Assembly: GCF_021222645.1 (NCBI RefSeq)
Contig: NZ_CP089520.1
Coordinates: forward strand, 1-64,000
Source of the DNA: Candidatus Nanosynbacter sp. HMT-352
GTDB lineage: Bacteria > Patescibacteriota > Saccharimonadia > Saccharimonadales > Saccharimonadaceae
DNA: 64,000 bases
Direction: 5' to 3'
This document shows, in pieces, positions 23 to 60,314 of the stretch (positions within the stretch are counted from its first letter, which is position 1; the number at the start of each line of letters is the position of its first letter). The notes below the pieces were generated by a model that ran no database searches, had not been told where the DNA came from, and saw nothing but the letters and a program-made list of their open reading frames with translations. The position numbers were made by a program, and so were the translations under genes.

Positions 23-28
23 TATAAT
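23..28 (+). promoter_or_regulatory. Extended -10 promoter of dnaG, leaderless type
   Basis: TATAAT preceded by TGA (20-22). Six bases separate the -10 from the ATG at 35, so transcription should start at the A of the start codon. The -35 lies at or beyond the window edge. Confidence 0.75.
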
Positions 29-34
29 AAAAAT

Positions 35-1768
35 ATGAATGATGCCAAAGAAGAAGTGCGGGCGCGACTGAACATCGAGGATGTGATTGGTGAGTATGTT
101 CAGTTGAAGCGAGCGGGGCGCAACTTGAAGGGCTTAAGTCCGTTTACCGACGAGCGAACCCCAAGCTTTATGGTTAGTCCAGAAAAGCAGATTTGGCACG
201 ATTTTTCTTCTGGAAAAGGTGGCGATATTTTTACATTTGTGATGATGGTGGAAGGAATAGATTTTCGTCAATCACTGGAGCATTTGGCTCGAAAGGCGGG
301 CGTTGATCTGACTTTGTTTTCTAATGGCGACGGACGAACGGCCAAGCGTCGCGCCAGGGCTAGGGAAGCACTGAAACTGGCTGCCAATTTTTATCAGCAG
401 AATTTGGTGAAAAATTCATTAGCTCTGAATTATGTGGTTAAAAAACGGCGATTAAATCGTCAAACGATTGGTGATTTTTTGATTGGCTATGCACCGGAGA
501 ATGGCGACGCATTGACTAAAGCATTGGAAAAAAGAGGATTTTCTAGGCAGGAATTGGCGGACGCTGGCTTGTCGAATCGGTTTGGTGGCGATTTGTTTCG
601 TGGGCGAATGATGGTGGCGTTGAGTGACGGCAATGGCGAAGTTGTGGGATTTACGGGCAGAATTATTCATGACGATCCGCGCGCGCCAAAATATCTAAAT
701 ACGCCGCAAACGCTGTTATTCGATAAATCGCGATATATTTTTGGTTTGCATCAAGCCAAGGAGGCGATTCGAAAAAGCGATGTAGCGGTGATTGTTGAGG
801 GCAATCTGGATGTAATTAGCAGTCATCAAGCGGGCGTTAAAAACGTGGTTGCGACTTCTGGAACGGCGATGACGACGCAACATTTGAAGTCGCTTAGTCG
901 ATTGGCGGGGCGGATTCGCTTGGCGTTTGATGGCGATCGAGCGGGAGTTAACGCGACGGAGCGCGCTATCAACTTGGCACAGGAAGTCGGTGTGGAGTTG
1001 GAAGTGGTGAGTTTGCCTGATGGCATTAAAGATCCAGACGAATTGATCCAAAAAGATCCAGCGCTTTGGCAAGCGGCGATTGACCAATCTCAGCCAGCGG
1101 TGGATTGGGTGATTGCCAGATACGCGGAAATGGAGAATTTGAAGTCGGCGGAAGGCAAGCGGCGATTTTCGACTATTGCACTGAGGATTGTCCGAGGTTT
1201 GAAAGATCCGGTGGAGCAAGAGCATTATTTGTCGGTGATTTCTGAAAAAACTGGCGCGTCAATTACTGCGCTGAAGGCAAAATTGTCGAATGAAAAAGTT
1301 GCTGAACATCAATTGAAAAAGGCGAAAATTGAAAAAGAAAAACCGACTCCGGTTCAGGATGAAACTGAAGATATGCTGGCGGGGCTGGCGGCGAGTGAAA
1401 AATCTGTGCGGCGCTGGTTGGCGGCGATTTCTGGAGAAATGCTGGACGGCGACGGTGCGCGGCAATTGATTGGTTATATACGAAAAAACCCAGACGTAGA
1501 CCTGGGTGAAGTTCCTCTGGACTTGCAAAAAATCGAACAGTATGTGAAAATAGTACAGTTGAAAAGTGAAAGTCGTTACGCCAATTGGGAGCAAAAAAGC
1601 TTGGACGAAGAGATGGCTCGGCTAGTCAGACAGATAACAATCAAACATCGCGAAAACAAAAAGAATCAATTATTAACGCAGCTTAGAGAGGCCGAGGCGT
1701 CGGGTGATGAGGTTTTGTCTCAGAATTTGCGCCAGAGCTTAAATAATCTGATTAAGGAGAAAATGTGA
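35..1768 (+). CDS. dnaG: DNA primase without zinc ligands
   Basis: Bacterial replicative primase, which makes RNA primers for chromosome replication. The N-terminal zinc-binding-domain fold is recognisable ([11 protein letters not shown], residues 42-52), but all four zinc ligands of the family are replaced: S35, T38, D56 and S59 stand where the C-H-C-C set normally is. The TOPRIM core is intact, with EGNLDV supplying the glutamate and FDGDRAG the DxD. A helical C-terminal part follows and would contact the DnaB helicase. Its length (577) is typical for DnaG. The last codons overlap the start of rpoD, the common dnaG-rpoD macromolecular-synthesis arrangement. The start has a leaderless promoter and no ribosome binding site. 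Confidence 0.96.
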
Positions 1769-2727
1769 GCGACGATATCACGACGAAGCCAGTAAACTTA
1801 AATGAAGATGATGATTTTGATCCAACACTTATAGACGAAGAAGAATCGGAAGATTTGGATTCGTTGACAACTGGGCAATATTTGGACGACGTGTCGGACG
1901 ACTCAGTCAGGTTGTATCTGCGGGAAATTGGTAAAATCCCACTACTTAGCGCTGAAGAGGAAATGGACTTGGCGCGCCGAATTGTTGAAGGCGATAAAAA
2001 GGCCAAGGACAAGATGGCTGAGGCGAATATGCGTTTGGTGGTATCAATTGCTAAGCGATATTCGGGTCGTGGCTTGGACTTTTTAGATTTGATTCAAGAG
2101 GGAAATACTGGGCTTTTGCGTGCGGTTGAGAAGTTTGATCCAGATAAGGGATTTAAGTTTTCGACCTATGCAACTTGGTGGATTCGTCAGGCAATTACGC
2201 GTGCGATTGCTGATCAGGCGCGAACGATTCGTATTCCAGTTCACATGGTGGAAACGATCAATAAATTGCTGCGTACTCAGCGACGAATGACACAGGAATT
2301 GAACCGTGAGCCGACAATTGAAGAATTGTCTAAAGAATTGGATATGGAGCCAGAGAAAATTGAATATGTCATTAAGATTAAGCAAGACATCTCTTCTTTG
2401 GATGCTGGTGTTGGTCGTGATGGTGAAGATGATGATTCTGTATTACAAGATTTTATCGTTGACGAAGATACGGTTTCACCGGAAGATTCCGCTTCAAATC
2501 AATTGTTAAAAGAGCAAGTTCAGGAAATTCTATCAAGTTTGAGTGATCGCGAGCAGAAAATTGTTCGAATGCGTTTTGGTTTGGATAATGGAAAAAACCA
2601 CACCTTGGAAGAAGTTGGTCAGGAGTTTGCAGTTACGCGTGAGCGAATCCGTCAGATTGAAGCTAAGGCGCTAGCAAAACTTCGCAAACATAAGGATGCG
2701 AAAAAACTTTACGAATATCTGGATTAG
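1765..2727 (+). CDS. rpoD: Primary sigma factor (RpoD/SigA type)
   Basis: Housekeeping sigma-70 factor that directs RNA polymerase to -35/-10 promoters. Region 1.2 starts near residue 50 ([10 protein letters not shown]). Region 2 carries the promoter-melting and -10 recognition helix ([18 protein letters not shown]). Regions 3 and 4 follow, with the -35-reading helix [13 protein letters not shown] at the end. At 320 residues it has only a short acidic region 1.1. The GTG start overlaps the dnaG stop (GTGA), with AAGGAG at 1754-1759 giving translational coupling. The many extended -10 boxes in this window fit a sigma region 3.0 that reads TGN, but that is inference. Confidence 0.97.
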
Positions 2728-3315
2728 TTAACACTGTTCGGGCGATTTACAAAAATGGGCGTCGTGGGTTACGGCGTCTATTTTTTGGTGTAATTGCTCG
2801 AGGCTGCCGTCGTTAATGATGAAATAATCAGCAATAGCAATTGGCCCACCTTTTTCCAGATTCTCGATTTCTGACCAGTCGCGCTGATCAACTTCGTGCG
2901 GTTGCATTGGGCGTTCTGCTCGTTTAATCATCCGCTGATAGCGGAGGTGTTTTGGTGTAACGATGGCAATAACAACAACCTGGCCAGGGAATTCATGTTT
3001 GAGGAATTTATATTCGCTCCAAGTGTATAGTCCATCCAAAACAATTTTATTTTGGCCAGCATTAATCAAATCATGGATGTTTTTTATAACGCGTTTGATT
3101 ACAAAATCTTTGCCTTCGCGGCGACGAATCTCTTCGCGGAATTTTTGTTGATTATCCCAAGTTTTTTCAATTCCGGCCTCATCCATAGCCTTATAGATAA
3201 CGCCACCGAAATAAATTTTTGGAAATCCTTTTTCTGTCAAATATTCGACAGCAGAACTTTTGCCGCTGCCCGCCAATCCAACCAGGGCGATAATTTTTGC
3301 GTGTGGTTGTGTCAT
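2728..3315 (-). CDS. CoaE-like P-loop nucleotide kinase
   Basis: P-loop kinase of 195 residues related to dephospho-CoA kinase and the archaeal UPF0200 kinases. Walker A is GLAGSGKS at residues 13-20. The lid region carries arginines, and the C-terminal segment IADYFIINDGSLEQL matches the CoaE ending. The substrate cannot be settled from sequence; dephospho-CoA or a nucleotide are both possible. It converges exactly on the rpoD stop. A TAAAAT box on the minus strand (3322-3327, preceded by TGT) sits 6 nt before the ATG, so this gene is also predicted to be leaderless. Confidence 0.75.
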   Translation of the reverse strand: MTQPHAKIIALVGLAGSGKSSAVEYLTEKGFPKIYFGGVIYKAMDEAGIEKTWDNQQKFREEIRRREGKDFVIKRVIKNIHDLINAGQNKIVLDGLYTWSEYKFLKHEFPGQVVVIAIVTPKHLRYQRMIKRAERPMQPHEVDQRDWSEIENLEKGGPIAIADYFIINDGSLEQLHQKIDAVTHDAHFCKSPEQC

Positions 3316-3335
3316 GTAATAATTTTAACAATTTG

Positions 3336-3932: not shown

Positions 3933-3942
3933 ATGCTACAAT
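3915..3942 (+). promoter_or_regulatory. Extended -10 promoter of polA, leaderless type
   Basis: CTGACG (3915-3920), 16-bp spacer, TACAAT (3937-3942) preceded by TGC. Six bases separate it from ATG 3949. Confidence 0.7.
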
Positions 3943-3948
3943 AGAACT

Positions 3949-6486
3949 ATGAAGCGTCTAGTAGTTATTGATGGAAAGTCGGTGTTTTACCGAGGTTATT
4001 ATGCTATGCCGGGATTGTCGATGGCTGACGGAACTCCGACTGGTGGTGTGTATGGATTTGTAAGTTTGGCAATTGAGCTAATTAAGAAATTAGAGCCGGA
4101 TTATGTGGCGGTAGCTTGGGATAAGCGAGGTACGAATATCCGCAAGCGGCGGGAATTATATCCAGAATATAAAGCTGGTCGCAAGCCGGCGCCAGATGAC
4201 TTTTACCAGCAAATTCCGATTTTACACGAGCTGCTTGATGCGTTTGGTTGGCCGCTTTATGAAATTGATGATTACGAGGCGGACGATATTATGGGCGCGT
4301 TTGCCAGGCAAGCAGAATCTCGCGGAATTGAAACGTGCTTGATAACGTCGGATTTGGACGCATTGCAATTGATATCACCGATGACCAAAGTCTACGCCAT
4401 GAAAAATGGTTTAAGGAATATTGAGGAATTTACGGCGGAACACTTTGAAGAAAAATATGGAATTCGGACGGAACAATTCTTAGATTTGAAAGCGCTGAAG
4501 GGTGATTCAAGTGATAATTTACCGGGAGTGCCGGGAATTGGTGAGAAAACGGCGGTGAAATTATTGCAAGAATATGAAACTCTGGACGGAGTTTATGAAC
4601 ATCTGGACGAGCAAAAAGGCGCTTTGCGAACGAAGTTGGAAAATGGTCGCGAGTCGGCATATTTGACCAAGCAAGTGGCGGAAATTTGGACGGACGTGCC
4701 GATTGAGCTGGACTGGGATGTGGCGGATGTTAATGATTGCGACTTTGCGCGAGTAACGGAAATTCTGCAGAAGTTGGAGTTTAATTCGCTGATTGGACGA
4801 TTGCCGCGAACGATGCAAATGGCGGAAAATGAGAAAAAAGAAGAACCGAAGTTGGATATTCCACGAATTGAAAAATTGCCCGACATGCCGATGTTTGAGG
4901 CGGAAAATATAATATATATCGATTCGTCGGAGCCTGACGTAATTTACATAAGCTCAAATCCTGAGTCGGCGTGGACGGCGAAAATTGATGAGATTAGTCA
5001 ATCCGTGTGGCAATTATTGGCGCAGGGAACTGTGATCGCGGCTGATGTCAAACGGTTATATCACGCGTTGGATAATTATGGCGTGGCGGTGCGTTTTCAT
5101 GAAGTTTGGGATGTTGAGCAGGCGGCATTTTTGATTGATCCGCTGAAGCGTGATCGTAGTTTGAATGCACTGTCTGGTGATTTTTCTGACGACAATTCCG
5201 CGCCTTATCAATTGGCTCGCTTGCACAAAATTTATCGTGAACAAAAAGTTTACATGTCGAACAATTCGCAAATTGCGCGTGTGGCTTACGAGTTTGATTT
5301 TCCAGTAATTTGGGCGCTATTCCAGATGGAAAAACGTGGGATGAAGTTGGATGATACGCTATTAAAACAGATGGGCGATGAGCTGGCGGCGGAAGTTGAT
5401 GAGCTTGAACAACAAATGTATTCCATGGCAGGATACGAGTTTAACGCGTCTAGTCCAGCGCAACTTTCTGAGGTTTTGTTTACCAAATTGCAATTACCAA
5501 CTGCGGGCATAAAAAAGGGAAAAACTGGATATTCAACAGGTCAAAAAGAGTTGGACAAATTACGTGGACAACATCCGATTATCGAGTTGATTGAGCGATA
5601 TCGAGAATTGACCAAATTGATCAGTACGTACATTGAGGCGTTACCAAAATTGATGGCGACTGATGGGCGAATTCACACTACATTCAATCAGGATGTAACC
5701 AGCACGGGGCGACTAAGCAGTACAAATCCGAATTTGCAGAATATTCCGGTGCGGACTGAACTGGGTAGGAAAATTCGTCAGGCATTCGTTCCGAGTGATG
5801 GCAAAGTTTTTGTCGGTGCGGATTATTCGCAATTTGAGCTGAGGCTGGCGGCTGTGCTGGCAGGCGACGAGAAATTGATTGAAGACTTTAATAGCGATGT
5901 TGATATTCACGCAAAAACGGCGGCGGAAACATACGGAATATCGATTGACGAAGTAAGCAAATCTCAGCGTCGAGCGGCTAAAGTGATCAATTTTGGTGTA
6001 CTTTACGGAATGAGTCCGCACGGTTTGGCGGCGGCTACGGGAATGTCATTTACAGAGGCGAAAAAGTTTATTGATCATTATTTTGAGGTGCGAAAGCCGA
6101 TTCGTCAGTACTTGGATAAAATTCTAACTCAAGCGCGGGAACAGGGATTTGTTGAGACGTATTTTGGTAGGCGACGACCAACTCCTGATGTAAAATCGAG
6201 CAATTTTATGGTGCGATCTTCGGCAGAAAGAGCTGCGATGAATATGCCAATTCAAGGCACGGAAGCGGATTTGATGAAATTGGCAATGATTCGGCTGGAG
6301 GATAAATTGTCGGGCTTGGCTGATGCGATTTTACAGGTTCATGATTCGATTTTGGTGGAATGCAAACCTGAAGACGTCCAGAAAGTCAGCGAGATTATGA
6401 AAGCGGAAATGGAAGGCGTTTGTCCAGAATTGCCGATTAAATTGAAAGTAGATGTCGGGACGGGCGTAAATTGGGGCGAAGTGTAG
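3949..6486 (+). CDS. polA: DNA polymerase I
   Basis: Repair and Okazaki-fragment polymerase of 845 residues. The N-terminal 5'-3' exonuclease domain has its metal-binding motifs (VIDGKSVFYRG, EADDIMG, TSDLDALQL, GDSSDNLPGVPGIG with the H3TH motif). The middle domain (about residues 300-440) has the 3'-5' exonuclease fold but lacks the catalytic DxE and later aspartates, so proofreading is predicted to be absent, as in Bacillus Pol I. The polymerase domain carries motif A DYSQFELRLAA, the O-helix RRAAKVINFGVLYG and motif C QVHDSILVE. It has its own leaderless promoter. Confidence 0.97.
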   Translation: MKRLVVIDGKSVFYRGYYAMPGLSMADGTPTGGVYGFVSLAIELIKKLEPDYVAVAWDKRGTNIRKRRELYPEYKAGRKPAPDDFYQQIPILHELLDAFGWPLYEIDDYEADDIMGAFARQAESRGIETCLITSDLDALQLISPMTKVYAMKNGLRNIEEFTAEHFEEKYGIRTEQFLDLKALKGDSSDNLPGVPGIGEKTAVKLLQEYETLDGVYEHLDEQKGALRTKLENGRESAYLTKQVAEIWTDVPIELDWDVADVNDCDFARVTEILQKLEFNSLIGRLPRTMQMAENEKKEEPKLDIPRIEKLPDMPMFEAENIIYIDSSEPDVIYISSNPESAWTAKIDEISQSVWQLLAQGTVIAADVKRLYHALDNYGVAVRFHEVWDVEQAAFLIDPLKRDRSLNALSGDFSDDNSAPYQLARLHKIYREQKVYMSNNSQIARVAYEFDFPVIWALFQMEKRGMKLDDTLLKQMGDELAAEVDELEQQMYSMAGYEFNASSPAQLSEVLFTKLQLPTAGIKKGKTGYSTGQKELDKLRGQHPIIELIERYRELTKLISTYIEALPKLMATDGRIHTTFNQDVTSTGRLSSTNPNLQNIPVRTELGRKIRQAFVPSDGKVFVGADYSQFELRLAAVLAGDEKLIEDFNSDVDIHAKTAAETYGISIDEVSKSQRRAAKVINFGVLYGMSPHGLAAATGMSFTEAKKFIDHYFEVRKPIRQYLDKILTQAREQGFVETYFGRRRPTPDVKSSNFMVRSSAERAAMNMPIQGTEADLMKLAMIRLEDKLSGLADAILQVHDSILVECKPEDVQKVSEIMKAEMEGVCPELPIKLKVDVGTGVNWGEV

Positions 6487-6495: not shown

Positions 6496-6501
6496 TATAA
6501 T
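6496..6501 (+). promoter_or_regulatory. Extended -10 box, leaderless type
   Basis: TATAAT preceded by TGG; six bases before ATG 6508. It lies just after the polA stop. Confidence 0.7.
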
Positions 6502-6507
6502 TACGCC

Positions 6508-7155
6508 ATGAAATACACTCAACGACGAAATTCATTTTCTCGATTTGTACCAATTTTGCTGGTTATTGTTATCACGGTTGTGGCGGTAGCAGCGGTTATT
6601 GCGATTGGTCGAGCATTATTTGGTAAAAATGATTCAGGTCAAACAACAGATCAGAATGTTAACGTAGGACAAGTTGCTTTGTTGTCGACGGACGTGGGAA
6701 GTGCGGTTCGATTGACGGTACGCGGACCAATTGTAGCGAATGAGAATTTCCGCTCATATAGCATCACTATTTCGCCAGAATCTCGCGAAATGACGACGTA
6801 CGAGGGATATTTGGATAAGCCGATTGCAGAGAAAAAATTGGACAATAACAGTAAGGCCTATACGGAGCTGGTTTATGCGCTTGATAAGCGAAAAATGATG
6901 GAAGGTACGCCGCTAACTGAGCAGCAAAACGATTTGCGGGGAATTTGTGCTAGCGGTAAAATTTACAAATTCGAAACTTTGAAGGACAATTCCGTTGTGA
7001 AGAGCTTGTGGACGTCGGATTGTAGCGGCTCTAAAGGTTCGGCGCAAGCTAATGTAAACGAGATTTTGGATATGTTTTTGAAACAAATTCCTGACGGCAA
7101 GAAAATGGCGGCTGGAATTGGTCTAAGTCAAGAAGAAGCTTTGTTTAAGCTGTAG
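6508..7155 (+). CDS. Membrane-anchored hypothetical protein, 215 aa
   Basis: Unrecognised family. A basic N-terminus is followed by one hydrophobic segment (about residues 14-36, PILLVIVITVVAVAAV), then a soluble domain of about 175 residues predicted to face outside. The domain has two cysteines (C149 and C172 approximately) that could form a disulfide, and a segment rich in beta-forming residues. The gene lies between polA and mutM, 10 nt before the mutM start, so it is probably co-transcribed with mutM and holA. No catalytic motif is visible. Confidence 0.7.
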   Translation: MKYTQRRNSFSRFVPILLVIVITVVAVAAVIAIGRALFGKNDSGQTTDQNVNVGQVALLSTDVGSAVRLTVRGPIVANENFRSYSITISPESREMTTYEGYLDKPIAEKKLDNNSKAYTELVYALDKRKMMEGTPLTEQQNDLRGICASGKIYKFETLKDNSVVKSLWTSDCSGSKGSAQANVNEILDMFLKQIPDGKKMAAGIGLSQEEALFKL

Positions 7156-12523: not shown

Positions 12524-12552
12524 TTGCAAAAAACAGAGAAGCTTGGTATAAT
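12524..12552 (+). promoter_or_regulatory. Promoter of rpsO
   Basis: TTGCAA (12524-12529), 17-bp spacer, TATAAT (12547-12552) preceded by TGG. The predicted 5' leader is only about 3 nt before ATG 12562, with no ribosome binding site. Confidence 0.8.
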
Positions 12553-12561
12553 TACAAAGCT

Positions 12562-12828
12562 ATGATTAGCAAAGAAAATAAAGCGAAAGCAATTGCTTTG
12601 ACTCAGGTCAATAAAAACGATGTCGGTAGCCCACAAGCTCAGGTGTCAGTTTTGACGGCTCGTATCAAAGAAGTCACGGAGCATTTGAAGGCGAATAAGC
12701 ACGACTTCATGGCTCGTCGCGGCTTGATCCAAATGGTTGGTAAGCGCAAGCGTTTGCTGAAATATTTGGAGCGAACTGATTTTGAGAGTTACAAAGCAGT
12801 TGTTGCCAAGTTAGGTTTGCGTAAATAA
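12562..12828 (+). CDS. rpsO: Ribosomal protein S15
   Basis: 16S rRNA-binding protein of 88 residues. The family pattern is complete, with GSPQAQVSVLTARIKEVTEHL, HDFMARRGL and GKRKRLLKYLE. It lies between truB and pnp, with the sortase gene interposed on the other strand, and has its own nearly leaderless promoter and a strong terminator. Confidence 0.97.
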   Translation: MISKENKAKAIALTQVNKNDVGSPQAQVSVLTARIKEVTEHLKANKHDFMARRGLIQMVGKRKRLLKYLERTDFESYKAVVAKLGLRK

Positions 12829-12886: not shown

Positions 12887-13495
12887 CTATTTTTTCAATT
12901 TGGCGATAATCACATCTCGTCCGTCGTTTGCGCCGCCCAAAGTACAGGAATAAAGAGTTAATTGCGGCTGATCTGTACGTTGTTCGATCTCTATGGCATC
13001 TGGTTTAACGCTTTGTTTTTCGCTGATGACGTAATTGTAACGCACGCCGTTATAGTCAATGATAATTTCATCGCCGACAGTTAATTTGTCGATATTATAA
13101 AAAGGTGATTTTCTGAGCGTCTGCTGAGGAGTTAATCCCATAATAAAACGGTGCGCAGATAAGACAAAATTGCCACCATCCTTTGGACTGCCATTTTCTG
13201 GTTTACGCCACCATGCGCCACGTTCCATTGTTTCGGCGCCACCAGTACTATAAGGCAAATTTATGTCGATTTTCGGTATATAAAGTCGATTTTCGGTAAT
13301 TTTATTCTCAGTTTTAGTGATGAGCTGAGTGGTGTGGTTGTCTTTTGGGTTAATGTTTTGCGACAAAATAAGGGGCGTGCTGATGAGAGCAAGCAAATAA
13401 ACTCCGCCAAGAATCATTAAGATTGCGATTATAGTTAAGATATAGCTTTTCCAGCTTTTCTGGCGATTTTTTACTGAATCTAGCTGAAGTGACAT
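12887..13495 (-). CDS. Sortase
   Basis: Membrane-anchored cysteine transpeptidase that attaches LPxTG proteins to the cell surface. An N-terminal transmembrane segment (YILTIIAILMILGGVYLLAL) precedes the beta-barrel domain. The catalytic triad is visible: His in LSAHRF, Cys in LYSCTLGG and Arg in DGRDVI. The start at 13495 (MSLQLDS, 202 aa) is preferred because a -10 lies exactly 6 nt before it; the frame extends six codons further upstream. The window also contains an LPKTG substrate at its right end. The class (D/E-like) was not determined. Confidence 0.92.
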   Translation of the reverse strand: MSLQLDSVKNRQKSWKSYILTIIAILMILGGVYLLALISTPLILSQNINPKDNHTTQLITKTENKITENRLYIPKIDINLPYSTGGAETMERGAWWRKPENGSPKDGGNFVLSAHRFIMGLTPQQTLRKSPFYNIDKLTVGDEIIIDYNGVRYNYVISEKQSVKPDAIEIEQRTDQPQLTLYSCTLGGANDGRDVIIAKLKK

Positions 13496-13501
13496 GAATA
13501 A

Positions 13502-13507
13502 ATTATA
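13502..13507 (-). promoter_or_regulatory. Extended -10 box of sortase gene, leaderless type
   Basis: TATAAT on the minus strand preceded by TGC; six bases before the ATG at 13495. Confidence 0.7.
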
Positions 13508-17253: not shown

Positions 17254-17259
17254 TAGAAT
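17254..17259 (+). promoter_or_regulatory. Extended -10 box of the UDG gene, leaderless type
   Basis: TAGAAT preceded by TGA; six bases before ATG 17266. Confidence 0.65.
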
Positions 17260-17265
17260 AAATAT

Positions 17266-17847
17266 ATGGACAAGCAGGTTAAATTGGACGCGTTGGCGGA
17301 AGAAATTGTAAAAGAGAAGGTTTGCTCGGATCTGGCGGATCAGGCGACGCAGCTTGTTATGGGCGATGGAAATCCTGATGCTGATATCGTTTTTATTGGC
17401 GAGGCGCCGGGGAAGAATGAAGATTTGCAGGGCAAGCCGTTCGTTGGCGCTGCGGGAAAATTCCTTGATGAAATGTTAAAGTCTGCTGATCTGCAACGTT
17501 CAGATGTGTATATTACTAATATTGTTAAATATCGACCGCCGAATAATCGTGACCCGTTACCAGAGGAAAAGCGCCAATTTTGGCCATATTTACTCAGGCA
17601 ATTAGAAATCATCCAGCCAAAGGCTATTTTGACCTTAGGGCGGCACAGTGGCGGCGGATTTATTCCAGGATTGCAGATCAGTAAAGAACACGGTCGTCCA
17701 CGTAAAGTGCGTCTGCATGAGCTTGAATTCGTAGTGATTCCGCTATATCATCCGGCGGCCGCGCTTTATAACGGCGGTATGCGCCAGACATTAATTGACG
17801 ATTTTATTCAGGCTGTGGAATTTGTGAAGAATAATAGCGGCGCTTAA
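17266..17847 (+). CDS. Family-4 uracil-DNA glycosylase lacking Fe-S cysteines
   Basis: Removes uracil from DNA. The active-site loop GEAPGKNEDLQGKPFVG and the HPAA motif place it in family 4 (UdgA type). That family normally holds a [4Fe-4S] cluster through four cysteines. Here KCRPP is KYRPP, the later cysteine in the PEE...C..L segment is phenylalanine, and the N-terminal C-x2-C pair is reduced to one cysteine at residue 20. Cluster binding is therefore unlikely while the catalytic motifs persist. Length 193 is normal. It is preceded by a terminator and a leaderless promoter. Confidence 0.9.
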   Translation: MDKQVKLDALAEEIVKEKVCSDLADQATQLVMGDGNPDADIVFIGEAPGKNEDLQGKPFVGAAGKFLDEMLKSADLQRSDVYITNIVKYRPPNNRDPLPEEKRQFWPYLLRQLEIIQPKAILTLGRHSGGGFIPGLQISKEHGRPRKVRLHELEFVVIPLYHPAAALYNGGMRQTLIDDFIQAVEFVKNNSGA

Positions 17848-22839: not shown

Positions 22840-22845
22840 TATAAT
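22840..22845 (+). promoter_or_regulatory. Second -10 box before ftsK
   Basis: TATAAT placing a transcript start near 22852, between ATG 22850 and ATG 22856. This supports the later ATG as a leaderless start. A tandem arrangement with the promoter at 22759-22787 is likely. Confidence 0.55.
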
Positions 22846-22855
22846 AAAAATGATT

Positions 22856-28657: not shown

Positions 28658-28663
28658 ATATTT

Positions 28664-28669
28664 ATTATA
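28664..28669 (-). promoter_or_regulatory. -10 box of ychF, leaderless type
   Basis: TATAAT on the minus strand, six bases before the ATG at 28657. Confidence 0.7.
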
Positions 28670-39991: not shown

Positions 39992-39997
39992 TATAAT
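39992..39997 (+). promoter_or_regulatory. Extended -10 box before the minor pilin cluster
   Basis: TATAAT preceded by TGC; six bases before GTG 40004 and nine before ATG 40007. Confidence 0.65.
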
Positions 39998-40003
39998 GGA
40001 GAA

Positions 40004-44701: not shown

Positions 44702-44707
44702 TATAAT
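44702..44707 (+). promoter_or_regulatory. Extended -10 box of tRNA-Arg
   Basis: TATAAT preceded by TGG; eight bases before the tRNA 5' end. The same promoter must serve the two genes that follow. Confidence 0.7.
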
Positions 44708-44715
44708 GGTTGTAT

Positions 44716-44792
44716 GCCTCGGTAGCTCAACTGGATAGAGCAGATCCGTCCTAAGGATAAGGTTGTAGGTTCGACTCCTGCCCGGGGTACCA
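44716..44792 (+). tRNA. tRNA-Arg (anticodon CCT)
   Basis: 77 nt with all four arms: the acceptor GCCTCGG pairs with CCGGGGT, the anticodon loop is GTCCTAA with stem ATCC/GGAT, and the T-arm is GTAGG-TTCGACT-CCTGC. The CCA is encoded (44790-44792). It decodes AGG. A protein gene starts 5 nt after the CCA. Confidence 0.93.
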
Positions 44793-49012: not shown

Positions 49013-49138
49013 TTAACTAAGTATAGATCTTTCTTCGTTAATCTTCTTGTTGTATTCGTAGTGAATTTTGGTCTTGCTCAATAAAGAACAATGTTGTGGC
49101 TTTTTTGTGCCTAAATTAGGCGAGTCATATTTACTCAT
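49013..49138 (-). CDS. Putative 41-residue protein
   Basis: Small open frame: ATG at 49138 (minus strand), TAA at 49013-49015. It begins MSKYDSPNLGTKKP and is rich in Lys, Tyr, Asn and Ser, with one Cys and no membrane segment. It has a complete promoter on the minus strand (TTGACT, 17-bp spacer, TAGAAT) with 7 nt to the ATG, and a strong terminator 20 nt after the stop. Together these make an independent single-gene unit. I do not recognise the family; a small ribosome-associated or basic regulatory protein is possible but unsupported. Confidence 0.6.
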   Translation of the reverse strand: MSKYDSPNLGTKKPQHCSLLSKTKIHYEYNKKINEERSILS

Positions 49139-49145
49139 GTTCCAA

Positions 49146-49174
49146 ATTCTAACATACTTATTGAATAAAGTCAA
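49146..49174 (-). promoter_or_regulatory. Promoter of the 41-aa gene
   Basis: On the minus strand: TTGACT (complement of 49169-49174), 17-bp spacer, TAGAAT (complement of 49146-49151), 7 nt to the ATG. Confidence 0.75.
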
Positions 49175-49399: not shown

Positions 49400-49405
49400 T
49401 ATAAT
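49400..49405 (+). promoter_or_regulatory. Extended -10 box of thrS, leaderless type
   Basis: TATAAT preceded by TGG; six bases before ATG 49412. Confidence 0.75.
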
Positions 49406-49411
49406 ACTGAT

Positions 49412-51223
49412 ATGAGCGAAGAAGAATTAAGATCTATGAGACATAGTCTAGCGCACATTATGGCGCAGGCTATTCAGCATTTATGGCCTCAAGCGAAGTT
49501 CGGTGTGGGTCCAGCTATCGATAATGGCTTTTACTATGATGTCTATCTTGACAACGGGACAATTTCTGAAGCTGATCTTCCGAAGATAGAAAAGGAGATG
49601 CGAAAGATCATAGCGGCTGATTATCCGCTTGAAAGGCGCGATGTGTCGGTAGAAGAGGCTATTGATTGGGCTATAAAGGGAGATCAGTCATTTAAGGTGG
49701 AACTACTGAATGACCTTAAGCGATCTGGTACTACAGTTGCTAGTGAATTGACTGGAGAAAAAATGGGGTCTGTGTCTGATGGCGATAGTAAAGTTGAGAC
49801 TGTTTCTTTGTATTCTCAGGGTGATTACACTGATTTGTGTAGGGGCGGACATGTGGATAGCACTGGAAAGGTTGGCGTATTTAAACTTACTAAGACGGCT
49901 GGAGCGTATTGGCGAGGCAGTGAAAATAATCCACAAATGCAACGAATATATGGTGTAGCGTTTGCTACGCAGGAAGAGCTGGATGAATATCTGAATAGAT
50001 TGGAGATTGCAAAACAGCGAGATCATCGCAAATTAGGTAGGGAGCTTGATTTGTATACAACTTCACCCTTGGTGGGGATTGGTTTACCTTTGTTTACTCC
50101 TCGCGGTACGATTTTACGAGATATAGTGGCTCAATATTCGAACCAGCTGAGACAGAAGTTTGGCTTTGAAAAAGTATGGACGCCTCATATTACGAAAAAA
50201 GATCTATATGAAACATCGGGACATTGGGCTAAGTTTGGAGAGGAATTATTTTTAGTTAAAAGCCAGGAAACTAGCGACGAGATGGCTCTTAAGCCTATGA
50301 ACTGTCCACATCATACGCAAATTTTTGCCTCACGACCGCGAAGTTATCGTGATATGCCGGTAAGATACTTGGAGACGACAACAGATTATCGTGACGAAAA
50401 AACTGGCGAGCTGGGCGGATTGAATCGAGTTCGCTCACTAACGCAAGATGATAGCCATATATTTTGTCGTACTGATCAGATTGAAGATGAGATTAATAAT
50501 TTATTGTCGGCTGCCCGCGAGCTATATAGATCAATTGATATGAAGCTCAGGGTTCGCTTGAGCTACCGTGATGAATCCAACTCGTACCTGGGTGACCTTG
50601 GCTTATGGGATTCCGCACAGAACCAGTTAAAGTCTGCTGTTGAGAAAGTAGGTTTGGATTATTTCGAACAAGAGGGTGAGGCGGCATTTTATGGTCCAAA
50701 GATTGACTTTATGGCGACGGATGCAATCGGTCGTGAACATCAAGTTGCAACTGTGCAGCTGGATTTTGTGCAACCACAAAGGTTTGGTTTGGAATATACG
50801 GATAATGATGGCAATTTTACAGCACCAGTTATGATTCACTGTGCCTTATTGGGCTCAATTGAGCGATTCTTAAGTGTGTTTATAGAACATACTGGCGGAT
50901 GGTTTCCGTTTTGGGCGGCTCCGGAACAAGTTCGTATTTTGACGATTAACGACACGGTGTTAGAGTATGTTGATAAAATAACAACTATATTATCAGACAT
51001 TACTCTCATGAAGCCAGTTAGATATAACGATGTAAGATTTACAATAAACTCTAGAAATGAATCATTAGGCAAGAAGATTAGGGAAGCTACTTCTATGAAG
51101 ATACCTGTTCAACTTATCGTAGGACCAAAGGATATGGAAGCTAGTGAGGTTAGTGTTCGCACGCAATCTGGTGAAGAAAAAATATCATTGGAGCAGCTTG
51201 CTGAGTATATAAAATCTTTATAG
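49412..51223 (+). CDS. thrS: Threonyl-tRNA synthetase without TGS domain
   Basis: Class II synthetase charging tRNA-Thr. The editing domain begins almost at the N-terminus (MRHSLAHIMAQAIQHLWP) and includes the CRGGHV motif; the aminoacylation core has LKPMNCPHH with the zinc-binding cysteine, and the anticodon-binding domain closes the protein. The N-terminal TGS domain of about 60 residues usual in ThrRS is absent, and the leaderless promoter at the start shows it is not missed by annotation. A tRNA-Thr gene lies 3 kb upstream. Confidence 0.95.
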   Translation: MSEEELRSMRHSLAHIMAQAIQHLWPQAKFGVGPAIDNGFYYDVYLDNGTISEADLPKIEKEMRKIIAADYPLERRDVSVEEAIDWAIKGDQSFKVELLNDLKRSGTTVASELTGEKMGSVSDGDSKVETVSLYSQGDYTDLCRGGHVDSTGKVGVFKLTKTAGAYWRGSENNPQMQRIYGVAFATQEELDEYLNRLEIAKQRDHRKLGRELDLYTTSPLVGIGLPLFTPRGTILRDIVAQYSNQLRQKFGFEKVWTPHITKKDLYETSGHWAKFGEELFLVKSQETSDEMALKPMNCPHHTQIFASRPRSYRDMPVRYLETTTDYRDEKTGELGGLNRVRSLTQDDSHIFCRTDQIEDEINNLLSAARELYRSIDMKLRVRLSYRDESNSYLGDLGLWDSAQNQLKSAVEKVGLDYFEQEGEAAFYGPKIDFMATDAIGREHQVATVQLDFVQPQRFGLEYTDNDGNFTAPVMIHCALLGSIERFLSVFIEHTGGWFPFWAAPEQVRILTINDTVLEYVDKITTILSDITLMKPVRYNDVRFTINSRNESLGKKIREATSMKIPVQLIVGPKDMEASEVSVRTQSGEEKISLEQLAEYIKSL

Positions 51224-52146: not shown

Positions 52147-52152
52147 TACAAT
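52147..52152 (+). promoter_or_regulatory. Extended -10 box before the HTH gene
   Basis: TACAAT preceded by TGT; nine bases before ATG 52162. Confidence 0.55.
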
Positions 52153-52161
52153 TATAGTGCA

Positions 52162-52752
52162 ATGATTGATTCATTATTTGGTTCAAAAACTAGGGTAAAA
52201 TTACTTCATCTTTTTCTGAACAATCCAGAAAAGTCATTTTACGTGAGAGAGATCACTAGGCTGATTGATGAGCAGATAAACTCCGTTCGTCGAGAACTGG
52301 CTAATATGGTATCTGTGGGTATAGTGCAGCAAGACGCTATTGATAATAAGCTATATTATAGTGTAAATGAGACTTATCTTTATATTAAGCCGCTTACGGC
52401 TATATTTTCAGACAAGAGTGCGGAAGGGTGTGCAGATGTAGGTGATATTTCCTGGGAGGATTCCCTGAAGAGAGTGAAGGGTTTAAAGTTGGCTATTATC
52501 TCAGGAAAGCTGGTAGTTGGGTCAAACTCTTCTATTGATCTATTGTTAGTTGGTGATGATATATCCACTTTAGCGATAAAAAATCTCACCAAAAAAATTG
52601 AAAAAGATAAAAAAACAGAGATAAATTATACTGTTATGTCCTATGACGATTTTTATTATAGGATGAGTGTCAAGGATAGATTTATAATGGATATTGTAAG
52701 AAATAAGCATTCAGTAGTAGTAGATATAGAAAATATAATGAGGAAGGAGTAG
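52162..52752 (+). CDS. Winged-HTH regulator with NTase-like C-terminus
   Basis: Residues 1-75 form an ArsR/MarR-like winged helix (SKTRVKLLHLFLNNPEKSFYVREITRLID). Residues about 105-190 resemble a minimal nucleotidyltransferase fold of the type attached to such HTH proteins (LKLAIISGKLVVGSNSSIDLLLVGDD). The usual G-S-x(n)-D-x-D metal site is partly changed: S-N-S-S-I-D-L-L remains. Length 196. It lies 2 nt before the MBL-fold gene with which it is probably co-transcribed. Its target is unknown. Confidence 0.7.
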   Translation: MIDSLFGSKTRVKLLHLFLNNPEKSFYVREITRLIDEQINSVRRELANMVSVGIVQQDAIDNKLYYSVNETYLYIKPLTAIFSDKSAEGCADVGDISWEDSLKRVKGLKLAIISGKLVVGSNSSIDLLLVGDDISTLAIKNLTKKIEKDKKTEINYTVMSYDDFYYRMSVKDRFIMDIVRNKHSVVVDIENIMRKE

Positions 52753-53763: not shown

Positions 53764-53769
53764 TATAAT
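53764..53769 (+). promoter_or_regulatory. Extended -10 box of the M50 gene, leaderless type
   Basis: TATAAT preceded by TGC; seven bases before ATG 53777. Confidence 0.65.
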
Positions 53770-53776
53770 AACACTT

Positions 53777-54421
53777 ATGATTTTAGAAATAATAATAGTT
53801 TTGATTGTTATATTGCTGTCTATGACTATTCATGAGGCTATGCATGCTTTTATGGGGTATATACTGGGCGATAATACCGCAAAAGAAGAAGGAAGGTTAA
53901 CTCTTAATCCTGTGAAGCATATTGACCCAGTGATGACTATTTTGCTTCCCTTGATTATGGTTATTTTACACGCTCCAGTCTTCGGAGGGGCTAAACCTGT
54001 TCCGTTTAATCCAAGTAGAGTCCGTTTTGGCGATTGGGGAGCAGTCCTTGTTGCCCTTTCCGGTCCGATTACTAACTTAATAATCGCCTTTATCGCATTT
54101 GGCGTAGGGGTTTTTGGTGGTGTTATTAATAATTCCGGAGTAGTACAGCCTACGATATTTGGATTGATTATTTCTACTGCTGTATCGGTAAATCTGGGAT
54201 TTTTTGTTTTTAATATGCTACCAATTCCGCCTCTAGACGGATCTAGAATATTATATGCCGTAGCGCCAAATAGTGTAAGGAGTGTTATGCAAAAAATTGA
54301 GCAAAATGGCATTCTTTTAGTGATGATTATAGTTGTGCTGTTTTCTGATGTGATCGGACAGGTTATGTCGGGTTGTATTCAGGCAATTTTGCGTGTATTT
54401 ATGAACATATTTAGTGTATAA
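53777..54421 (+). CDS. Site-2-protease-like M50 membrane metalloprotease
   Basis: Membrane-embedded zinc protease of the rhomboid-unrelated M50 (SpoIVFB/YwhC-like) group. The zinc motif HEAMH (residues about 18-22) lies in the first helix; NPVKHIDP and PPLDGSRIL supply the further ligand region. About five to six helices and no PDZ domain. Length 214. Such small S2P proteins are common in reduced bacteria; substrates are unknown. Confidence 0.88.
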   Translation: MILEIIIVLIVILLSMTIHEAMHAFMGYILGDNTAKEEGRLTLNPVKHIDPVMTILLPLIMVILHAPVFGGAKPVPFNPSRVRFGDWGAVLVALSGPITNLIIAFIAFGVGVFGGVINNSGVVQPTIFGLIISTAVSVNLGFFVFNMLPIPPLDGSRILYAVAPNSVRSVMQKIEQNGILLVMIIVVLFSDVIGQVMSGCIQAILRVFMNIFSV

Positions 54422-54583: not shown

Positions 54584-54589
54584 TATAAT
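54584..54589 (+). promoter_or_regulatory. Extended -10 box of rnpB
   Basis: TATAAT preceded by TGC; seven bases before the RNase P RNA 5' end. Confidence 0.75.
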
Positions 54590-54596
54590 ATATCGT

Positions 54597-54935
54597 GTAG
54601 TCTGTTGGGCAATCGCTTAAGTTATACTTAAGAGGAAAGTCCGGGCAGCAAAGGATACGACAGTCGTTAACGGCGACCGGAGGTAACTCTAGGGAAAGTG
54701 CCACAGAAACGAAACTACCCTTGTATTTTATATACGAGGGAAAAGGTGAAACGAGTGGGGTAAGAGCCCACAGTCGTCTATGGCGACATAGACGAGAGGT
54801 AAACCCTGTCGGCTGCAAGGAGATTTGCAAATAGGATTATCCGTCCGCAGATCGATAACCGCTTGATTTGTTTGGCAACAAGCAAACTAGATAGATGATT
54901 ACCCTAGACAGAACCCGGCTTATAGACAGACTATG
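54597..54935 (+). ncRNA. rnpB: RNase P RNA
   Basis: Catalytic RNA that trims tRNA 5' ends. The conserved GAGGAAAGTCCGGGC (from 54631) and AGAACCCGGCTTAT blocks are present, and the 5' TAGTCTGT (54598-54605) pairs with ACAGACTA (54926-54933). Length about 339 nt. The protein frame on the opposite strand of this region is a shadow. It ends at a terminator shared with rplT. Confidence 0.96.
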
Positions 54936-54938
54936 AAT

Positions 54939-56116: not shown

Positions 56117-57640
56117 TTAACCTATGTTAATCTGTCTGTATTGTAGGCTTTCTGCTATGTGTGGAACTTCTATAGACGTGGATCCTTCTAAATCTGCGAT
56201 AGTGCGAGAAACTTTTATGACCTTAAAGTAGCTGCGAGTGCTTAAATCTAGTTTTTTGGCTGCGTTCGTCAAGAAGGTTTTTGCAGATTCTGAGATTGAT
56301 GTAATTTTGTCAACGTTACTACTTGGAATGTCATTGTTGTATTTATAACTACACTTATATCTGTCTCTCTGAATGGAGTAGGCTTTATGTATCTCAGATA
56401 AAAATGTCTCTTGTTGTGATTTTGTCGACATTTTATTATTTAATAATTTTTCATGGGGGACTCGTGAAACCGATACTGTTAGGTCTATTCGATCAAGTAA
56501 CGGCCCTGATAATCTTTTTTGATAATTGAGAATTTGATTTTGTGAGCATATGCAAGTTTTTTCTGTGTCTCCAAGAAATCCACAAGGACAAGGATTCATT
56601 GTGGCTACTAATAAAAAATTGGCAGGGAAGTTGAATTTACCATTTGCACGACTGACGGTAATTTCGTGATCCTCTAAGGGTTGACGAAGTGATTCAAGCA
56701 CAGTGCGTGGATATTCAAGTAGCTCATCAAGAAATAGGACGCCTCTATGAGCTAAACTGATTTCTCCCGGCTGCACTTTCGATCCTCCGCCAATAATAGA
56801 GGCTCTACTTGCGGTGTGGTGTGGCGACCTGAATGGTCTATCTACTATGGGATTATTTATTATAGTGTGTTCTCCAAGGCTGTGAAGTTTTGTCACTTCC
56901 ACTATCTCATCCTCCGACAGGGCTGGTAATAGATTCTTCAAGGATTTTGCCAACATAGTTTTTCCTGATCCCGGAGGGCCGGACAATAAAATATTATGTC
57001 TTCCGGCAACGGCTATCTGGATAGCTCTCTTTGCTTGCTCTTGTCCGTAGATATCATCAATGGTTGGAGTGTTTTTATGATTGGAAAATATATTTTTTAC
57101 TGACGATCTATCTATTGGTTTAATAATCTTTTCTTTTTTGAGATGTAAGAAGAGTGACTTCAGGTTTTCTACTGGAAATACATCAACTCCAGTCGTCAGC
57201 GCCGCTTGTTCGGCGTTTTGAGCTGGTACGTATATTGATTTAATTTTTTGATTTTTAGCTACTTCGGCTGTAATAATTGCTGATCGTATTGGACGTAGGC
57301 TGCCGTCTAGTGCCAATTCACCCGCAAAAACCGCATTATTTATATCGCTTTGGTTGAGCGCGCCGCTGATACATAAAATAGACAGGGCAATAGGAAGATC
57401 GAAGTGAGATCCGTCTTTTGGCAGTTCTGCTGGTGCTAAGTTGATAATTATTTTTCCTTTCGGAAAGTCCAAGGAAGAGTTTTTTATTGCGCTACGCACT
57501 CGGTCTCTGGACTCATCGATGGCTTTATTGCCCATTCCGACAATTTGTAAGCTAGGGAGTCCTTTTGACATATCTCCTTCAACCTCGATGATTTGCCCGT
57601 TAAATCCATAGGGAGTAGCTGAAATAACTCTACTTATCAT
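56117..57640 (-). CDS. comM: ComM/YifB Mg-chelatase-like helicase
   Basis: AAA+ protein of 507 residues. The Lon-like N-terminal domain (GLPSLQIVGMGNKAIDESRDRV) is followed by the AAA module: Walker A GPPGSGKT, Walker B VLFLDELLEY, and the zinc-like cluster CPCGFLGDTEKTC. ComM is the branch-migration helicase that speeds integration of taken-up DNA in naturally competent bacteria. With the retractable pilus in this window it supports, but does not prove, natural transformation. It reads into infC. Confidence 0.92.
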   Translation of the reverse strand: MISRVISATPYGFNGQIIEVEGDMSKGLPSLQIVGMGNKAIDESRDRVRSAIKNSSLDFPKGKIIINLAPAELPKDGSHFDLPIALSILCISGALNQSDINNAVFAGELALDGSLRPIRSAIITAEVAKNQKIKSIYVPAQNAEQAALTTGVDVFPVENLKSLFLHLKKEKIIKPIDRSSVKNIFSNHKNTPTIDDIYGQEQAKRAIQIAVAGRHNILLSGPPGSGKTMLAKSLKNLLPALSEDEIVEVTKLHSLGEHTIINNPIVDRPFRSPHHTASRASIIGGGSKVQPGEISLAHRGVLFLDELLEYPRTVLESLRQPLEDHEITVSRANGKFNFPANFLLVATMNPCPCGFLGDTEKTCICSQNQILNYQKRLSGPLLDRIDLTVSVSRVPHEKLLNNKMSTKSQQETFLSEIHKAYSIQRDRYKCSYKYNNDIPSSNVDKITSISESAKTFLTNAAKKLDLSTRSYFKVIKVSRTIADLEGSTSIEVPHIAESLQYRQINIG

Positions 57641-57686
57641 GAATCTATTAAAACATAAGCATGTAGATTTTTGAATGAGGTCAGGG

Positions 57687-59429: not shown

Positions 59430-59435
59430 TATGAT
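59430..59435 (+). promoter_or_regulatory. -10 box, leaderless type
   Basis: TATGAT; six bases before ATG 59442. Confidence 0.5.
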
Positions 59436-59441
59436 GTGAGT

Positions 59442-59813
59442 ATGGGGATGAAGATAATTAGTTTTATAGCGTTGGTTGCATTGATTTTGACTGCGGTTAT
59501 TTTGAGCGCGACAAACCCGAGCTCTGCTGGTCCGTTTGGGATTTTAGCGTTTTTCGTATGTTTGTATGTACTATTTATCTGTCTAACTTATGTAGTATTT
59601 TTAACATCGGAGCGAATAGCTGCGAAATTTTTTAATTTCAAGAATAGTCGCAATGAATCTAAGTATAAGACGTATTATTACTCTACTGTAATCTCTCTTG
59701 CTCCAGTTATTTATATGGGTATGCAATCGATGGGAGATGTTGGGGTTTTTGAGACATTATTACTTGGTGTGTTTGAGTTGCTGGCGTGTTTTTTTATACA
59801 TAAAAGATACTAA
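59442..59813 (+). CDS. Small polytopic membrane protein
   Basis: 123 residues, family unknown. Three or four hydrophobic helices (residues about 3-25, 32-55, 80-100, 103-120) with a short charged loop FFNFKNSRNESKYK. ATG 59442 is chosen on the 6-nt spacing; a GTG six bases earlier and an ATG six bases later are in frame. It lies upstream of the TraG-like cluster but has its own promoter. Confidence 0.65.
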   Translation: MGMKIISFIALVALILTAVILSATNPSSAGPFGILAFFVCLYVLFICLTYVVFLTSERIAAKFFNFKNSRNESKYKTYYYSTVISLAPVIYMGMQSMGDVGVFETLLLGVFELLACFFIHKRY

Positions 59814-59855
59814 TCCCGTCCTGAATGTAGTCGTGTATTTTAAGTAGTTACGTGG

Positions 59856-59861
59856 TACAAT
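59856..59861 (+). promoter_or_regulatory. Extended -10 box, leaderless type
   Basis: TACAAT preceded by TGG; six bases before ATG 59868. Confidence 0.65.
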
Positions 59862-59867
59862 ATATTT

Positions 59868-60314
59868 ATGAATCCCGAACTGCCACAAGTTAATAGTAAT
59901 CCTGAGGTGCAGCCACAAAATATAGGTGGCGGTGAGTATAATGTAGAAAATACATCATTAAATCCTGAAGTCGGAAGAGAGTCTGAGCAGTCTCTTGGTG
60001 CTAGGGTTGAACAATATAATAATATCCCCGTGGCTTTGCCTGTTGATAATACTACAACAGTTCCTTTATCTCAATCTCAAAACGACGATCAAAGTACGAA
60101 TCAGTCAGGGGTGGTAGCTGATGATGATACTCCTCTAGTGGCAGCGGATGAAGACTTGATAGAAAGAGAGTGGGTGGATAAAGTTAAAAAGATTATAGCT
60201 TTAACAAAAGATAATCCTTATGAGAGGAATAGAGTTATTGCGCAGCTGCAGGCTGATTATTTAAAAAAACGATATAATAAGACTTTAGGTCAAAATGACG
60301 ACGGTAGTAAGTAG
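59868..60314 (+). CDS. Acidic Asn/Gln-rich hypothetical protein
   Basis: 148 residues. Residues 1-95 are disordered (Asn, Gln, Pro, Ser-rich); residues about 98-140 form a basic helix pair (EREWVDKVKKIIALTKDNPYERNRVIAQLQADYLKKRYNK with the length kept short here). There is no membrane segment. It is 8 nt before the TraG-like ATPase gene and is probably its partner. This architecture recurs beside such ATPases in CPR genomes (family knowledge, from memory). Confidence 0.7.
   Translation: MNPELPQVNSNPEVQPQNIGGGEYNVENTSLNPEVGRESEQSLGARVEQYNNIPVALPVDNTTTVPLSQSQNDDQSTNQSGVVADDDTPLVAADEDLIEREWVDKVKKIIALTKDNPYERNRVIAQLQADYLKKRYNKTLGQNDDGSK

Follow-up and report, generated by a model that had tools for sequence, protein, structure and literature searches.

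The 64,000-nucleotide (nt) stretch of Candidatus Nanosynbacter sp. HMT-352 analysed here (contig NZ_CP089520.1, positions 1 to 64,000; hereafter the window) contains many genes whose start codon closely follows a -10 promoter box. We conclude that, in this organism and its relatives, many genes are very probably transcribed into mRNAs that are leaderless or carry a leader of only 1–4 nt, beside genes that use Shine-Dalgarno (SD)-led initiation. This reading, in which transcription start sites (TSSs) are placed from the DNA sequence, is strongly supported by (i) a sharp lower limit to the spacing between box and start codon, (ii) the extended form of the -10 boxes, (iii) the almost exclusive use of ATG, (iv) the rarity with which box and SD motif occur together, (v) conservation between orthologues, and (vi) a matching spacing in front of RNase P RNA genes. 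Throughout, Nk denotes k nt between the -10 hexamer and the start codon.

A first-pass annotation of the window had listed fifteen genes whose start codon is preceded, at a distance of exactly 6 or 7 nt, by a -10 box, often TGN-TATAAT. Each of the 15 boxes was read at its stated place, 11 of them at N6 and four at N7 (Table 1). The TG of an extended -10 element is present in 13 boxes (it is missing from those of xer and the gene at 59442), and the hexamers comprise TATAAT (8), TAGAAT (3), TACAAT (2), TAAAAT (1) and TATGAT (1). Five boxes (the three TAGAAT, TAAAAT and TATGAT) are variants with no or weak N6–N7 enrichment in relatives. Scores below the cut of 7 used for our -10 matrix were obtained for the boxes of the genes at 3315 (6.2), the uracil-DNA glycosylase (UDG) gene (6.8) and xer (4.5). 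Pfam confirmed the identities of dnaG, polA, sortase, UDG, ychF, thrS and the M50 peptidase, as well as the prepilin motif and a phage-integrase-type recombinase, but the putative coaE-like product matched general P-loop models only, and no Pfam match was found for the products of the genes at 6508, 28702, 59442 and 59868 or of the 41-aa open reading frame (ORF).

Could an AT-rich genome simply yield TATAAT-like strings in front of many ATGs? A degenerate TANNNT probe, applied to the window alone, gave no spacing peak at N6–N7, its background being too high, and one of the six TATAAT-N6-ATG matches in the window, also present in the TGNTANAAT list, is the promoter of a tRNA-Arg gene (at 44702) and opens no protein gene. 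Against this stand dinucleotide-preserving shuffles, which predicted 1.16 TATAAT-N6-ATG matches where six were found, and 0.30 matches of TGNTANAAT-N6-ATG where ten were found (the largest number in any shuffle was two). A matrix derived from two other genomes likewise gave 10 matches at N6 and N7 in front of window genes vs three across the 26 spacings N0–5 and N11–30 (Poisson, 1e-13). The annotation's statement that the spacing is too uniform for chance was therefore well founded, and we regard a chance origin as practically negligible; it is refuted by the spacing profile of whole genomes, described below.

Related loci were collected by a search with the ychF protein (the best 80 of 560 relatives), in which Candidatus Saccharibacteria rank top (81% identity downward), followed by Actinobacteria (approximately 60%); the window is accordingly assigned to Candidatus Saccharibacteria. 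Two relatives were analysed genome-wide: G001, a complete genome of 1.04 Mb (record of locus L009), and G005, the closest relative, represented by most of its genome (0.85 Mb in six contigs; genome of locus L001). When TATAAT-Nk-ATG was counted anywhere in these genomes, i.e. independently of gene calls, the numbers stayed at background through N5, jumped at N6 and were near background again at N11–N12. For matches opening frames of at least 80 codons, the counts in G005 were 0 at N5, then 32, 30, 13, 11 and 9 at N6 to N10 and 3 at N11, while G001 gave 1 at N5 and 20, 19, 14, 11 and 17 at N6 to N10. The same step was observed with three strict hexamers in front of divergent genes, which served as a proxy for the first genes of transcription units: 0, 0, 0, 0, 1, 0 at N0–5 and 31, 20, 10, 4, 5 at N6–10 in G005 (192 genes), and 1, 2, 1, 1, 1, 0 and 25, 25, 9, 11, 7, respectively, in G001 (274 genes). 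A wall at N6 is the prediction of leaderless transcription, because a start codon closer to the box would sit upstream of the TSS and be lost from the mRNA. A genome-wide excess at N6–N7 is thus present in both relatives; these spacings are the mode, and the range extends from N6 to N10, so that "exactly 6 or 7" was too narrow. Genes beyond the original list include two at N9, rpsO (12562) and that at 52162, and a ComM/Mg-chelatase-like gene (57640, minus strand) at N6 with a weak TTTAAT. In addition, TATAAT-N10-ATG forms a second bump, with 28 (G001) and 27 (G005) matches vs a background of approximately 10, which exceeds N9 and perhaps reflects a preferred leader of 3–4 nt.

The proportion of first genes involved was estimated with a -10 matrix trained on one relative and tested on the other (threshold 7). 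Here and in the scan of the 46 further loci described below, contig-edge genes (two in G001, six in G005, two in the window) were dropped, as were genes lacking an ATG candidate, which left 264 of 274, 176 of 192 and 12 of 12 divergent genes, respectively. A box at N6–N10 was detected in 76/176 genes of G005 (7–10 in five control ranges) and in 93/264 genes of G001 (6–17 in the control ranges); the net excess over background peaks at 0.42 and 0.36 of the divergent genes, respectively. The corresponding number for the window is 4–7 of 12, depending on the threshold (five with the matrix trained on both relatives). Classified by start type, 91/274 (G001) and 74/192 (G005) divergent genes have leaderless-type starts, and 44/274 and 31/192 have strict SD motifs. 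Box and SD motif occur together in only two and one of these genes, respectively (p ~1e-6 each). Judged by these sequence classes, leaderless heads outnumber strict-SD heads roughly two to one. They make up the largest class of first genes that can be identified, but the pattern is not universal. The annotation's word "default" overstates the case, because the net share is only 36–42% and about half of the divergent genes fall into neither class.

Leaderless transcription might nevertheless be what nearly all first genes really use; the unassigned half would then be explained by -10 boxes of low strength, by upstream genes that were overlooked or by the action of other sigma factors. The net excess is indeed largest at low thresholds, where 7 of the 12 divergent window genes carry a box. 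However, divergent genes led by SD motifs do exist, in the numbers given above, and their boxes, where no leaderless box is present, lie from N19 onward, N11–N18 being empty except for one box at N12 (the lack of boxes at N6–N10 in these SD-only genes arises by construction, that at N11–N18 does not). Hence, we consider near-universality rather unlikely.

Among co-directional genes, 54/132 (G001) and 56/147 (G005) SD-only genes start between -20 and +10 nt from the upstream stop codon, vs only 3/117 and 2/99 leaderless genes; in 106/117 and 91/99 of the latter this distance exceeds 20 nt. Many SD starts also lie farther from the upstream stop; the claim that operon-internal genes use an SD sequence was right in kind. 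The anti-SD core CCTCC was intact in all four 16S genes read (five genomes were queried, one of which gave no match), so the relatives do not fit the description of SD-independent genomes that have lost their anti-SD. A search for the 16S 3' end with the exact string GGATCACCTCCTT gave no match in 211 loci; the 3' ends that were read are GGATTACCTCC. The 16S 3' end in L212, L213, L214 and L215 reads GGATTACCTCCTTTCT (the next bases in L215 are TTTCTT), with T in place of the C found at that position in the usual bacterial sequence (GGATCACCTCC). The idea that ribosomal protein S1 is absent, a condition that would favour leaderless mRNA, found no support: an S1-like protein covering approximately model positions 13–350 gave a strong match in 40 of 41 class genomes (a weak one in G042), although none scores above the rpsA cut-off.

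The start codons themselves provided further evidence. At leaderless-type starts ATG, GTG and TTG were found 210, 5 and 4 times in G001 and 181, 15 and 6 times in G005, vs 24, 8 and 8, and 22, 15 and 14 times at a control spacing; neither GTG nor TTG has a clear N6–N7 peak in these genomes. G001 and G005 share 440 pairs of reciprocal best hits. In 65 of these both members are leaderless-type, where independence would predict 26.4 (p 2e-21), and the start codons of these 65 are aligned exactly in 39 pairs and lie no more than 3 residues apart in 57. Outright switches between leaderless and SD starts were observed in 10 of the 440 pairs. For pairs between the window and either relative that are leaderless in both, starts lie within 3 residues in 4/5 and 6/7. 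These observations bear on the possibility that the promoters are real but the starts misplaced, i.e. that transcripts begin at the listed ATGs and translation begins at a later, SD-led codon. Some genes do have a later in-frame start, and the starts of pilin and ftsK have to be moved by one or two codons, but the alignment of orthologous starts, the near-absence of codons other than ATG and the rare coincidence of box and SD in divergent genes make such misplacement very improbable as a general explanation. For pilin, ATG 40007 (N9) is probably the start rather than GTG 40004 (N6), because leaderless starts are almost only ATG; for ftsK, ATG 22856 (N10) is probably to be preferred to ATG 22850, which at N4 is too close to the box. 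Calling start codons from promoters, as had been suggested, thus works well within orthologue pairs, yet it argues against the pilin start chosen in the annotation.

The form of the element was resolved by comparing T[AG]NNNT hexamers in the relatives. Clear enrichment at N6 and N7 was limited to TATAAT (150; 43.5 expected), TATACT (124; 45.6 expected) and TACAAT (74; 39.9 expected), while all others were enriched at most 1.5-fold, with at most a weak excess of TATTAT, TATGAT and TATAGT and virtually none of TATATT and TAAAAT; TATAAA showed no excess. By these counts, the box of the relatives is not the degenerate TANNNT of the leaderless systems of the Actinobacterial/Deinococcal type. The box is preceded by TNTGN and by a weak T at the position at which, given a 17-bp spacer, a -35 box would start, and is followed by an A-rich stretch. 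In its sequence, therefore, the element is a sigma70-type extended -10 promoter, composed of TATAAT with TGN and a weak -35. A calibration was provided by RNase P RNA genes (loci from 30 of 39 matching genomes, plus the window): 27 of 31 have a box scoring at least 7 (one exactly 7.0), and 20 of these 27 boxes lie at N6–N9 of the model start, with a mode at N7 (11, window included), although the Rfam model start only approximates the 5' end of this RNA. The tmRNA 5' end, which is processed, was discarded as a calibrator.

The A-rich stretch after the box would also fit an element acting in translation, as an unstructured or A/U-rich ribosome site of the kind proposed for non-SD genes elsewhere, and not as a promoter. 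A role of this kind is hardly compatible with the hexamer specificity (TATAAA, TATATT and TAAAAT are not clearly enriched), the TG extension and weak -35 T, the sharing of the element with rnpB and tRNA-Arg, and the distance of co-directional leaderless genes from the upstream stop codon, and we consider it most unlikely.

The following mechanism may be envisaged. Promoters of the extended -10 type (TNTGN-TATAAT; the commonest variants in relatives are TATACT and TACAAT) are set 6–10 nt before ATG. The primary sigma factor would open the DNA at the box and RNA polymerase would start 6–8 nt downstream, so that the first transcribed base would be the A of the ATG or a base at most approximately 4 nt before it, giving an mRNA without room for an SD sequence. 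In leaderless mRNAs, the 5'-terminal AUG is recognized directly by the 70S ribosome with initiator tRNA, and the transcripts considered here would be translated in this way. The relatives keep a normal anti-SD, and SD-led initiation would serve many operon-internal genes and those first genes, a minority, whose leaders are longer.

Several observations weigh against leaderless transcription, or limit its extent. Neither class was assigned, at the thresholds used, to 141/274 (G001) and 88/192 (G005) divergent genes. Among leaderless-type genes of G001 with a G005 orthologue, 31/96 are not leaderless-type in the latter, and 56/121 leaderless-type genes of G005 lack the signal in their G001 partner. 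The window agrees only moderately with the two relatives: both partners are leaderless in 5/54 pairs (2.7 expected) and 7/51 pairs (3.5 expected), and, in this small sample, the farthest control range reaches 4 of the 12 divergent genes at the lowest threshold. The excess at N6 is not perfectly specific for ATG in G001, where TATAAT-N6-ATT (29) and -ATA (32) exceed the usual counts (17 and 19, without elevation, in G005). The N8–N10 group, including the N10 bump, implies leaders of 1–4 nt rather than strictly leaderless mRNAs. Furthermore, genes were called with our own simple caller, the TSS positions are predicted, and the matrix trained on G001 and G005 was used for scoring the window and the RNase P genes, for the start-codon and SD classes, for the orthologues and for the 46 loci described below; for G001 and G005 only the cross-validated count of divergent genes is held out.

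The phenomenon is not confined to these genomes. A further 46 loci of the ychF scan, unused in training, were tested (41 are titled Saccharibacteria or Saccharimonas, while L017, L023, L027, L032 and L033 bear other record titles; L001 and L009, from the training genomes, L040, the locus of G004, and L050 were excluded). Boxes at N6–N10 were found in 50 of their 140 divergent genes, with a profile of 0, 2, 0, 0, 0, 1 at N0–5 and 19, 13, 11, 4, 3 at N6–10. Across the class to which G001 belongs (which we take to be Saccharimonadia), TATAAT-N6-ATG occurs 3852 times in 99 genomes vs 841 per spacing at N3–N5; N6 exceeds the mean of N3–N5 in 98 of them (the exception is G016), again contrary to a chance origin, and is at least twofold higher in 91. 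For the phylum (presumably Patescibacteria), 12 of 286 genomes with a background below 2 were dropped, and in the remaining 274 the median ratio of TATAAT-N6-ATG to the per-spacing background at N16–25 is 2.18; it is at least 2 in 155 genomes and below 1 in 26, G109, G104, G154 and G221 being among the latter. G004, assigned to Patescibacteria, has no excess (12 vs 10 in a reversed control). The low-ratio genomes seem to have lost the habit, never to have had it, or to use other -10 sequences. Whether leaderless, AUG-gated initiation at transcription-unit heads, beside SD-led operon-internal initiation, is an old habit of the whole candidate phyla radiation (CPR)/Patescibacteria, lost in a minority of lineages, is in our estimation an evenly balanced question.

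In Escherichia coli no box at N6–N10 was found in 53 divergent and 118 co-directional genes, which is a weak control, as the matrix finds almost nothing there at any spacing. With the relatives' matrix, 4 of 108 divergent genes from 30 actinobacterial loci were positive; TANNNT-N6-ATG occurred 106 times in Actinobacteria vs 39–92 at other spacings (this set included the non-actinobacterial L050), and TATAAT-N6-ATG 0–9 times per genome in five genomes.

Leaderless genes with a start-adjacent -10 box are established in Actinobacteria, Deinococcus-Thermus and others (PMC3160421, PMC12340547, PMC3898074). The genes described here resemble TA-led genes (Zheng et al. 2011, PMC3160421) in that the first T of a -10-like box lies approximately 12 bp ahead of the start codon, in that they coexist with SD-led genes in one genome, and in that the state is common to related species. 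In GC-rich TA-led groups the box is a degenerate TANNNT, whereas here a near-full TATAAT with TG extension occurs at 42–47% GC; this form is not in itself new, since TAtaaT is reported for groups of medium GC, Aquificae among them (PMC3160421). The "-10 motif adjacent to ORFs" of Deinococcus-Thermus is similar: a TANNNT box stands at a short, constant distance from the ORF and was tested as a promoter of leaderless mRNA (PMC12340547). In Mycobacterium tuberculosis, TSS mapping classed 26% of the genes with a primary TSS as leaderless (5' untranslated region of -5 to +5; Cortes et al. 2013, PMC3898074), compared with our assignment from sequence; under that 5-nt rule the 1–4-nt leaders of the N8–N10 class would count as leaderless (PMC3898074).

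Mycobacterial leaderless mRNAs also use GTG, in contrast to the leaderless starts described here, nearly all of which are ATG. The 2018 GeneMarkS-2 survey of Lomsadze is said to define a bacterial leaderless class, possibly with Saccharibacteria among its members. The kind of mechanism is already known; we found no report of it for Saccharibacteria, and priority is uncertain, since that survey may include some of them. A title and abstract search of the open-licence literature returned no description of leaderless transcription in Saccharibacteria or Patescibacteria, and in PMC7441243, PMC6851277 and PMC10434106 the word leaderless occurs in reference lists only. The terms "TM7" and "candidate division" are absent from the text of the study of 953 bacterial genomes (PMC3160421), as are "TM7" and "candidate" from that of the Deinococcus-Thermus study, whose domain-wide scan (Fig S7) covers "common phyla" (PMC12340547).

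Gene starts and expression rules in Saccharibacteria and their relatives, a large and mostly uncultured share of bacterial diversity, are largely guessed from models of SD-led bacteria. A promoter-to-start rule improves start codons and marks the heads of transcription units from DNA alone, and the age of leaderless initiation becomes testable in another bacterial branch. For the builders of expression tools, a conventional 5' untranslated region may be foreign to many genes of these organisms. The rule also bears on drugs that spare leaderless initiation, as some inhibit leadered but not leaderless initiation (PMC9581028).

Table 1. Promoter boxes and associated start codons in the window (positions of the window; spacing as Nk)
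Feature	Box and spacing	Position	Strand	Basis
dnaG (start 35)	TGA-TATAAT-N6-ATG	23..37	+	sequence; Pfam DnaG domains
P-loop protein, annotated as coaE-like (start 3315)	TGT-TAAAAT-N6-ATG, weak box	3313..3327	-	Pfam AAA_18/AAA_17; CoaE model not listed
polA (start 3949)	TGC-TACAAT-N6-ATG	3937..3951	+	sequence; Pfam
215-aa gene (start 6508)	TGG-TATAAT-N6-ATG	6496..6510	+	no Pfam match
rpsO (start 12562), added here	TGG-TATAAT-N9-ATG, predicted leader ~2-3 nt	12547..12564	+	matrix; sequence; Pfam
Sortase (start 13495)	TGC-TATAAT-N6-ATG	13493..13507	-	sequence; Pfam
Uracil-DNA glycosylase (start 17266)	TGA-TAGAAT-N6-ATG	17254..17268	+	sequence; Pfam
ftsK	TATAAT; N4 to ATG 22850, N10 to ATG 22856	22840..22858	+	matrix; sequence; Pfam
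ychF (start 28657)	TGA-TATAAT-N6-ATG	28655..28669	-	sequence; Pfam
991-aa gene (start 28702), divergent from ychF	TGA-TATAAT-N7-ATG	28689..28704	+	no Pfam match
Prepilin-type gene	TGC-TATAAT; N6 to GTG 40004, N9 to ATG 40007	39992..40009	+	N_methyl motif at residues 3-27 from 40007
xer-type integrase (start 44063)	TAGAAT-N7-ATG, low matrix score	44061..44076	-	sequence; Pfam
tRNA-Arg (44716-44792), RNA gene, not a leaderless protein gene	TGG-TATAAT-N8	44702..44716	+	sequence
41-aa ORF (start 49138)	TGT-TAGAAT-N7-ATG	49136..49151	-	no Pfam match
thrS (start 49412)	TGG-TATAAT-N6-ATG	49400..49414	+	sequence; Pfam
196-aa gene (start 52162), added here	TGT-TACAAT-N9-ATG	52147..52164	+	no Pfam match
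M50 peptidase (start 53777)	TGC-TATAAT-N7-ATG	53764..53779	+	sequence; Pfam
RNase P RNA (54597-54938), calibration	TGC-TATAAT-N7	54584..54597	+	sequence
ComM/Mg-chelatase-like gene (start 57640), added here	TGT-TTTAAT-N6-ATG, weak box	57638..57652	-	matrix; sequence; Pfam
123-aa gene (start 59442)	TATGAT-N6-ATG	59430..59444	+	no Pfam match
148-aa gene (start 59868)	TGG-TACAAT-N6-ATG	59856..59870	+	no Pfam match

Some further features of the window are worth mentioning. The genes ychF (28657) and that of the 991-aa protein (28702) form a divergent leaderless pair whose start codons are separated by only 44 bp; their promoters therefore overlap and may be mutually exclusive. The 991-aa protein (28702-31677) has a strong leaderless promoter and only partial similarity in relatives. 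YchF itself is described as promoting the translation of leaderless mRNA (PMC12641178). The 41-aa ORF (49013-49138, minus strand) may encode a small protein. Finally, a tmRNA at 57707-58096 (plus strand) was found by Rfam (89.9 bits) and was not reported by ARAGORN; a TATAAT ends 14 nt before its model start.

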